From Nitrospira sp. (lineage in GTDB: Bacteria > Nitrospirota > Thermodesulfovibrionia > UBA6902), in contig JADHUV010000005.1 of NCBI GenBank assembly GCA_016784355.1, forward strand, positions 1-64,000: a DNA stretch of 64,000 bases. The letters run 5' to 3'. Every line of letters begins with the position of its first letter. Position 1 is the first letter of the stretch. Below the pieces are notes generated by a model that was given only the letters and a program-made list of their open reading frames with translations, was not told where the DNA came from and did not search any database. Of this stretch, positions 37,191-63,522 are shown piece after piece. The translations under genes were made by a program, and so were the position numbers.

Positions 37191-37197
37191 ATTTTAA

Positions 37198-37313
<116 letters not shown>

Positions 37314-37387
37314 ATTTTTTCAAATTCAGAAACTAATATTAGCACAAAGAAAAACTTAATGCAAGTAAAAAATTTTAAGGCAATAAA

Positions 37388-37463
37388 TGGTGGAGGTGAA
37401 CGGGATCGAACCGATGACCTCCTGGTTGCAAACCAGGCGCTCTCCCAGCTGAGCTACACCCCC
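37388..37463 (-). tRNA. tRNA-Ala (anticodon TGC)
   Basis: The minus strand reads GGGGGTGTAGCTCAGCTGGG at the 5' end, an anticodon arm CTGGTTTGCAAACCAG with TGC at 37428-37430, a T arm with GGTTCGATCCC, and an encoded CCA end. All arms pair. It stands 93 bases after tRNA-Ile in the same orientation, the usual pair of a 16S-23S spacer. Confidence 0.97.
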
Positions 37464-37556
37464 ATACCACTTACCAACGTCTCAACAAGCGAAGTTATTA
37501 TATATAAAGTCGCAAAAAAAAAGCAAAGGCATTATGCCAATAAAAACCACCGAAAA

Positions 37557-37633
<77 letters not shown>

Positions 37634-48522: not shown

Positions 48523-49131
48523 TTACTGATCAATAAGCTTCTGGATCAACTCCTTAAATTCATCATTGTCCCAATCTTTATAACCAAGCGCCGAGGCAAT
48601 AACATTGCCCTGCTTATCAATAAGCATCTTGGCAGGAGTAGATCTTATCCCGAACATACTGCTTACCTGCCCGGTTTCATCTAAAAGATTTGCATAAGAA
48701 AGGCCATGCTTTTTCACAGATTTTCCAACGGTAGCCTGATCCTCTCCCATATCAATCCCGACAAGCTCAAATTTGGCATCTTTAAAGTGACGACTTAATT
48801 TCTCCAGGGAAGGCAACTCCTTCCTGCACCATGGTCACCAGGTAGTCCAGAAACTCAAAAGTACAACCTTACCCCTGTAATCGCTCAGCGAAACCGTTCT
48901 GCCGTCCACGGCCTTTAACTGAAAATCCGGAGCGACAGTTCCGGCCTTAAGCTGATACATACCGGTTGAGGTTATCAACTCTGCAATGCTCCCGGATATA
49001 ACAGTGGACTCTCCCTGCGGTTCATCACCTTTACATCCCGGAACAAAAATCAGAACAAATCCGAGCATTGTCAGAGCAAATAAATTCAGTAAATGTTTTT
49101 TCATATGCTGCTTCCTTACCGCTTTTTTCAT
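48523..49131 (-). CDS. TlpA/ResA-like thioredoxin lipoprotein with UPWC redox motif (selenoprotein)
   Basis: The frame runs in one register from 49131 to 48523 except for a TGA at 48835-48837. Across it the protein reads LLSFWTTW-U-PWCRKELPSLEKL, so UGA occupies the first position of the thioredoxin CxxC motif. Upstream are a lipoprotein-like signal (FVLIFVPGC), the TlpA opening APDFQLKAVDGRTVSLSDYR and GKVVL; downstream are FELVGIDMGEDQATVGK, the cis-proline region IRSTPAKMLIDKQG and a closing helix, giving about 202 residues. A strong hairpin follows the UGA. An internal ATG at 49104 after AAGGAAG is an alternative start. It would act as an extracytoplasmic thiol-disulfide or selenol reductase. 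Confidence 0.92.
48805..48826 (-). promoter_or_regulatory. bacterial SECIS-like hairpin of the TlpA-like gene
   Basis: On the minus strand, eight bases after the UGA, CAGGAAGG pairs with CCTTCCCTG (eight pairs, one bulged C) around the five-base loop AGTTG. The loop guanine is the 18th base after the UGA. The stem is far stronger than needed for chance and fits the bacterial SECIS geometry. Confidence 0.8.
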
Positions 49132-61879: not shown

Positions 61880-63499
61880 ATGAAATTTCAAGACAACATA
61901 AATCTGGAGAGCGCCCTCAACTTTGACAACAAATATACACGGGAACTTCCGGCAGACCCTGAAACCGCAAATAAGACGCGCCACGTTGCAAGCTCCTGTT
62001 ACTCCAGAGTCCTGCCGGTAAAAGCAAGTGCACCTGATTTAGTCGCTTATTCCAGAGAAATGGCCGGGGAAATAGGTCTTTCCCCAAAGATTTGTGAATC
62101 AGAGGATTTCGTACAGATTTTCTCCGGGTCCAGGATTTTATCCGGCATGGATCCCTATGCCACCTGCTACGGCGGGCACCAGTTTGGAAGCTGGGCCGGT
62201 CAGCTTGGAGATGGACGGGCAATTAATCTGGGAGAGGTTGTAAATAAAGAAGGAAACAGATGGGTGCTTCAACTAAAGGGTGCCGGACCTACTCCCTATT
62301 CAAGAAGAGGGGACGGCTTTGCGGTCTTACGCTCCTCGATCCGCGAGTTTTTGTGCAGCGAAGCCATGTATCATCTCGGCATCCCGACTACCAGGGCCTT
62401 AAGCCTTGTAACCACCGGAGATCAGGTAATCAGGGATATGTTTTATGATGGCCACCCTGAGCCGGAGCCCGGAGCGATTGTCTGCCGGGTAGCCCCGTCC
62501 TTTACACGCTTTGGAAATTTCCAGCTTTTCACCTACAGAGGAGAACTGGATCTCCTGCGCCGCTTTACCGATTACACCATACGCACAGACTTTCCTCATC
62601 TGGGAGAGCCTTCGAAAGAAGTGTATTGTGCATGGTTTGAAGAAATCTGCAAATTAACCGCAGAGATGATCGTACACTGGCAGCGTACAGGTTTTGTGCA
62701 TGGAGTAATGAATACGGACAACATGTCTATTCTGGGCCTTACTATCGATTATGGTCCCTATGGATGGCTGGAAGATTATGATCCGAACTGGACACCCAAC
62801 ACGACCGATGCAGAGGGTCGCAGATATTGTTTTGGCAATCAGCCGGAGATCGCACAATGGAACCTTCTTCAACTGGCAAATGCAATCTATCCTTTAATAG
62901 AAGATGCGAAGCCCTTAGAAGACTCTATCCAGAACTATTCAAATCATTTTCAGGATAAATGGCAGAACATGATGGCTGATAAATTAGGGCTTGCTAACTT
63001 CCATAAAACCAGTGATGATGCTCTTATAAATGAAATGCTTAAACTGCTGCAGCATCTCGAAACAGACATGACCATATTCTTCCGCAGACTGGCATCGCTT
63101 GAGGTTAGCAGCAATACCAAGCATAAATCATCGAGTCATAATCTAATCGATCATTTCTCCGATGCCTACTATATAGAGGAGCAGATAAATGAGGAATATA
63201 AAATTAGACTGAATAAATGGATAGAACAATACAGGGCGCGCCTGATTCAGGACAAAACACCTGATAATATCCGCAGGGAGAAAATGAACAGCATCAATCC
63301 AAAATATATATTCAGAAACTATATTGCTCAACTCGCTATAGATAAAGCAGAGCAGGGAGATAACTCCATGGTCAATGAACTGCTTGAGGTATTGAGAAAA
63401 CCATACGATGAGCAGCCGTCAAAAGAGGCACTTGCCCAAAGACGCCCTGAATGGGCCCGCCATCGGGCCGGAAGCGCAATGCTTTCCTGAAGCTCTTGA
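61880..63499 (+). CDS. selO: SelO pseudokinase (protein AMPylator) with C-terminal selenocysteine
   Basis: The protein matches SelO/YdiU over its length: YGGHQFGSWAGQLGDGRAI, QLKGAGPTPYSRRGDGFAVL, RSSIREFLCSEAMYHLGIPT, FVHGVMNTDNMSILGLTIDY with DYGPYGWLEDYDP, and the ending RRPEWARHRAGSAMLS. A TGA (63488-63490) then AGC TCT TGA reads U-S-S-stop, so the tail is SUSS, matching the C-S-S tail of Cys homologues and the Sec position of vertebrate SelO. Sec would be residue 537 of 539. A hairpin follows. SelO transfers AMP to proteins under redox control. The start is taken at 61880; an in-frame frame opens at 61784. Confidence 0.93.
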
Positions 63500-63522
63500 C
63501 CCCCTTATGGAATAAGGGATCA
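63497..63522 (+). promoter_or_regulatory. bacterial SECIS-like hairpin of selO
   Basis: CCCTTAT (63502-63508) and ATAAGGG (63512-63518) form a perfect seven-base-pair stem with the loop GGA; TGA/TCA outer pairs extend it across a small internal loop. The first loop guanine is 19 bases after the UGA. The outer 5' arm contains the final stop codon. Confidence 0.75.

Follow-up and report, generated by a model that had tools for sequence, protein, structure and literature searches.

A predicted selenocysteine-tailed SelO in a second bacterial lineage, marked by a conserved UGA codon and a downstream SECIS-like hairpin

In the account of Dudkiewicz and colleagues, SelO proteins containing selenocysteine (Sec) were known only from eukaryotes, and a generalized (C/U)xx> ending of the family was noted (PMC3281104). 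The metazoan proteins treated there carry Sec third from the C terminus, in agreement with the initial annotation of the locus described here, which had placed its candidate Sec at the position used by vertebrate SelO. The first bacterial Sec-SelO, that of Desulfosediminicola ganghwensis, was reported in the deep-Sep study (mSystems 2025; PMC12013277) and is included in a 2026 review (PMC13188914). The view of the initial annotation that Sec-SelO is mainly eukaryotic is therefore outdated, and what stands of its claim to novelty is the addition of another bacterial lineage. Since a bacterial Sec-SelO was already reported in 2025, the gene described here adds a further case, probably an independent one, and is not the first. 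The passages on Sec-SelO in these three publications do not name its lineage. Cys-type SelO/YdiU proteins are represented by those of Escherichia coli and Pseudomonas syringae (6eac, 6iii, 6k20); the E. coli enzyme has a regulatory disulfide that links Cys272 to Cys476, its third-last residue (PMC7278666, PMC8097203). Judged from sequence, the new elements here are a second bacterial Sec-SelO lineage, possibly arisen by an independent Cys-to-Sec change, and the absence of the E. coli partner Cys272.

The gene lies in a 64,000-nucleotide stretch of a Nitrospira sp. assembly (contig JADHUV010000005.1, positions 1 to 64,000), hereafter the window. Its features are as follows.

61880-63499, plus strand: selO coding sequence, 539 residues with the candidate Sec as residue 537; ATG at 61880, stop codon TGA at 63497-63499
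63488-63490, plus strand: TGA codon, candidate Sec, at the position of the invariant C-terminal Cys
63491-63496, plus strand: Ser codons AGC TCT after the UGA; Ser-Ser is kept in all 10 UGA genes
63497-63499, plus strand: true selO stop; TGA in the window, TAA in the five relatives from its family
63502-63518, plus strand: putative bacterial SECIS-like hairpin CCCTTA-TGGAA-TAAGGG, lying wholly 3' of the stop codon

The sequence of the encoded protein identifies it unmistakably as SelO/YdiU. It matches Pfam PF02696 with 443 bits over profile positions 13-465 of 466, the NCBIfam YdiU subfamily profile with 600 bits (cut-off, 431), and the solved SelO/YdiU structures with E values of about 1e-110. 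The pseudokinase active-site residues of SelO (COG0397), K133, N281, and D290, are invariant together with their motifs in 60 aligned proteins, and the gene start agrees with the starts of its relatives. In frame with that ATG, positions 63482-63499 read CTT TCC TGA AGC TCT TGA, which bears out the LS-UGA-S-S-UGA ending given in the initial annotation; the predicted C terminus is ...RPEWARHRAGSAMLS-U-S-S, and U537-S-S-stop conforms to the (C/U)xx> motif. The protein shares its family and the LKGAG, HGVMNTDN, and DYGP motifs with the Cys-type enzymes, but these end in C-S-S, so that Sec would stand in place of Cys. With metazoan selenoprotein O it shares a Sec third from the end (Uxx>; PMC3281104), whereas the metazoan tail is CxxU and the window protein has Met three residues before Sec (A-M-L-S-U-S-S). 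Eukaryotic SECIS elements are also unlike the bacterial SECIS-like hairpin of the window in structure. The closest described counterpart is the Desulfosediminicola ganghwensis gene, likewise a bacterial COG0397 member with UGA at the Cys position and a SECIS-like hairpin downstream (PMC12013277), but the window gene belongs to a different family and phylum, is followed by a hairpin of different sequence, and stands apart in our preferred tree.

The UGA ending is conserved beyond what recent descent would leave. The search for SelO covered the window's genome, 36 further members of its family, and 24 less closely related genomes, 61 in all; six of them, all from the window's family, had SelO above the family cut-off. 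All six genes, that of the window and those of five relatives, end in LS-TGA-AGC-TC(A/T)-stop followed by a common hairpin. The initial annotation had named as its refutation close homologues that stop cleanly at this codon and whose sequence beyond it differs; we looked for such genes and found none. The proteins of the five relatives are 78 to 81% identical to that of the window, and fourfold-degenerate third positions are only 48 to 52% identical; the retention of the UGA, Ser-Ser, the stop, and the hairpin is thus not due to recent descent. A wider search used the pattern RP(E/D)WA, eight residues, LS-TGA-SS-stop, with a reversed pattern as control. Among 396 genomes of the window's phylum it matched three, each from the window's family; among 258 from Desulfobulbales, the order to which a Desulfocapsa belongs, it matched four; and among 390 from the order that includes a Desulfobacteraceae bin it matched none. 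The reversed pattern had no match in any of these three sets. The four Desulfobulbales genomes may include Desulfosediminicola ganghwensis. As the initial annotation had supposed, Cys-type bacterial genes end in C-S-S at the place of the UGA: all 80 Cys-type SelO loci compared, which come from many phyla, have Cys in an LSCSS ending at this position. Every SelO gene without the terminal Cys, six from the window's family and four from Desulfobulbales, has TGA there. Across these 10 genes the Ser-Ser codons show synonymous changes only (AGC/AGT and TCT/TCA/TCC), and, of the two stop-like codons, the first is invariably TGA and the second either TAA or TGA. This comparison excludes a chance origin of the LS-UGA-S-S ending.

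Bacterial SECIS elements have been summarized as hairpins with a loop of 3 to 9 nucleotides (nt), a stem of 4 to 16 bp, a G in the first two loop positions, a distance of 16 to 37 nt from the UGA, and a minimum free energy of at most -7.5 kcal/mol (in the rules given by PMC13188914). The window hairpin agrees with these rules, with the loop TGGAA (or GGA), a stem of 6 to 7 bp, a G in the first two loop positions, and the apical loop 17 to 18 nt past the UGA. Its minimum free energy is -10.7 kcal/mol over 48 nt; the folding z-score of this single sequence is only -1.7. The alignment of the family from the UGA to the hairpin end is invariant in 24 of 31 columns. Compared with the family form CTCTTA-TGGAW-TAAGAG, the window hairpin carries one compensatory pair, U-A to C-G, and its covariation was matched by 85 of 500 shuffles, which is weak evidence alone. 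The hairpin of the four Desulfobulbales genes differs, with the core GGYRC-AGNNN-GYRCC, an AG-N3 loop as against TGGAA or TGGAT in the window's family, and a stem that has no sequence in common with the family's. It shows compensatory changes in four of seven pairs, and 2 of 500 shuffles attained its covariation score. All 10 UGA genes have a stem of 6 bp or more whose loop has a G in its first two positions, 17 to 22 nt past the UGA, whereas hairpins of at least 6 bp that fit the SECIS loop and spacing constraints occur, by chance, in 11 of 80 Cys-type genes. The mean folding z-score is -2.7 in the UGA genes versus +0.06 in the Cys genes. On these sequence data, the weight of the hairpin case lies on conservation and on the second lineage, not on the single covariation within the family.

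The search for Sec machinery gave a mixed result. The initial annotation had proposed asking whether SelO genes ending in TGA-Ser-Ser-stop co-occur with hairpins and selB; the hairpins do so in all 10 genes, and SelB scores above its cut-off in each of the five SelO-UGA relatives (and in 54 of the 61 genomes searched) but not in the window's own assembly. In that assembly (91.8% complete, 88 contigs), searches for SelB and tRNA-Sec found neither. selA adjoins selB in one SelO-UGA relative. A tRNA-Sec with the anticodon TCA was found in one relative (G007), and searches with the Rfam model and a pattern did not find it in the four other SelB-positive ones (G010, G012, G020, and G028). ARAGORN near selB recognized none in these four either. 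A hand-made tRNA search of the relatives' selB regions returned only the known G007 gene, and a tRNA-Sec hidden in or beside selB was rejected on this ground; an unusual tRNA or incomplete genomes may account for the gap in the four relatives. The window's own genome encodes a single SelD above the cut-off (C2:6531-7442, minus strand), a full-length family match with an in-frame TGA at the catalytic residue (AAG-U-AAK). Minimum-energy folding gave no convincing SECIS for this gene, so only the position of its UGA is used as evidence.

The window also contains a TlpA/ResA-like thioredoxin gene (48526-49131, minus strand) with an in-frame TGA at 48835-48837, read as WTTW-U-PWC, and with a hairpin, GGAAGG-AGTTG-CCTTCC, after that TGA. 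It is a second likely selenoprotein gene in the window, and standard annotation splits it in two. Together, the SelD-UGA and the TlpA-like UPWC gene show indirectly that this genome uses Sec. Elsewhere in the window, tRNA-Ile, tRNA-Ala, and 5S rRNA genes lie within 440 bases (37197-37633, minus strand) with no 16S or 23S rRNA genes around them, which points to an assembly or masking gap or to a broken rRNA operon.

Given that the UGA and a small hairpin are kept in all six SelO genes of the family, we regard it as very probable that the TGA at 63488-63490 is read as Sec by means of the hairpin, yielding a Sec-tailed SelO-family adenylyltransferase. Strong support for this reading comes from the retention of the UGA and of Ser-Ser, from the SECIS-like hairpin, from the SelB of the relatives, and from the other Sec genes of the window's own genome. 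The hairpin at 63502-63518 would recruit SelB carrying Sec-tRNA-Sec as the ribosome reaches the UGA; the ribosome would then add Sec, Ser, and Ser and halt at 63497-63499. The predicted product is a SelO-family protein adenylyltransferase in which Sec replaces the C-terminal redox Cys. Here we infer, rather than observe, the actual insertion of Sec, the AMPylation activity, and the action of Sec as a redox switch or sensor.

Were the TGA an ordinary stop, an ancestral Cys codon (TGC or TGT) would have mutated to TGA and left an enzyme without its last three residues, a course of events with which the searches of the window's own assembly for SelB and tRNA-Sec would agree. Yet nothing would keep a plain stop from turning into TAA or TAG, or the codons after it from drifting, while TGA and the following Ser-Ser and stop persist throughout the 10 genes at near-saturated synonymous divergence, and the hairpin is conserved with a compensatory change. 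We consider this explanation very improbable, and an ordinary stop with downstream drift was rejected on the conservation of the ending. Still less probable is that the hairpin is a terminator or another 3' untranslated element unrelated to Sec, with a UGA that is leaky or decoded by a near-cognate tRNA. The hairpin does lie 3' of the stop codon, the usual place of a terminator, but no T run follows its stem, a terminator scan did not call it an intrinsic terminator, and hairpins that obey the bacterial SECIS rules for loop, stem, and spacing occur in every UGA gene and in few Cys genes; the terminator was accordingly rejected for want of a T run. Reassignment of UGA throughout the genome was likewise rejected as unlikely, because the true stop of the window selO is itself TGA, as is that of many other genes in the window, with unrelated sequence behind them.

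Phylogenetic analysis favors two independent Cys-to-Sec changes in bacteria, one in the window's family and one in Desulfobulbales. A careful tree was built from 39 SelO proteins after exclusion of the Sec column. The Sec groups came together in none of 200 bootstrap trees, and a Cys-type Desulfocapsa SelO was sister to the Desulfobulbales Sec forms (support, 96/92). Both results, like the lack of common sequence between the stems of the two hairpins, stand against a single bacterial origin of Sec in SelO with gene transfer to both lineages, a rival on origin only. In its favor, a single Sec clade was not rejected by the approximately unbiased test, either with 39 rows (P = 0.26) or with the quick tree of 90 rows (P = 0.67), and for the 90 rows the one-clade tree had a higher likelihood than that of the quick free search. 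Weighing the separation of the groups in 200 of 200 bootstraps with this test, we favor two changes and hold a single origin to be possible but rather unlikely.

The function of the tail cannot follow the E. coli arrangement exactly. The partner Cys of the E. coli type of switch (Cys272-Cys476) is absent from the activation loop of the window protein: E. coli Cys272 aligns to Pro306, which lies within W304-T305-P306-N307, invariant in all 60 aligned proteins. Sec537 is nonetheless probably redox responsive and would control AMPylation, by analogy with the described enzyme. In an alignment of 90 proteins, a Cys five residues before the terminal Cys or Sec is present in 97% of Cys-type SelO proteins and in all four Desulfobulbales forms; the position is Ser in three of the six family members, including the window protein (residue 532). 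This loss in half of the family looks as if, once Sec had been gained, the constraint on the position had eased. Two other residues of the SelO alignment, the invariant Cys159 and the almost invariant Cys202, could each be the partner of Sec. The predicted structure of the window SelO has a mean pLDDT of 85 and of about 54 in the tail, a low confidence from which we draw no conclusion on which Cys lies near Sec. A broader proposal, which we put forward tentatively, is that at least two Cys-to-Sec changes took place independently in bacteria, separate from those of eukaryotes, and that in the window's family the selenol, lacking Cys272 and, in half of the members, the upstream Cys, might act with another partner (e.g., Cys159) or intermolecularly, as a selenium-dependent switch of AMPylation.

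Automatic annotation clips UGA-type SelO proteins by three residues, and a functional residue is lost with them. The 6 and 4 Sec forms and the 80 Cys forms assembled here provide gene sets for testing the role of the tail. Repeated replacement of Cys by Sec at a single position of an AMPylating enzyme, as favored here, would speak for redox activity of that residue in the native protein. On the present reading, the Sec of SelO would be neither a eukaryotic peculiarity nor confined to one lineage of sulfate reducers.
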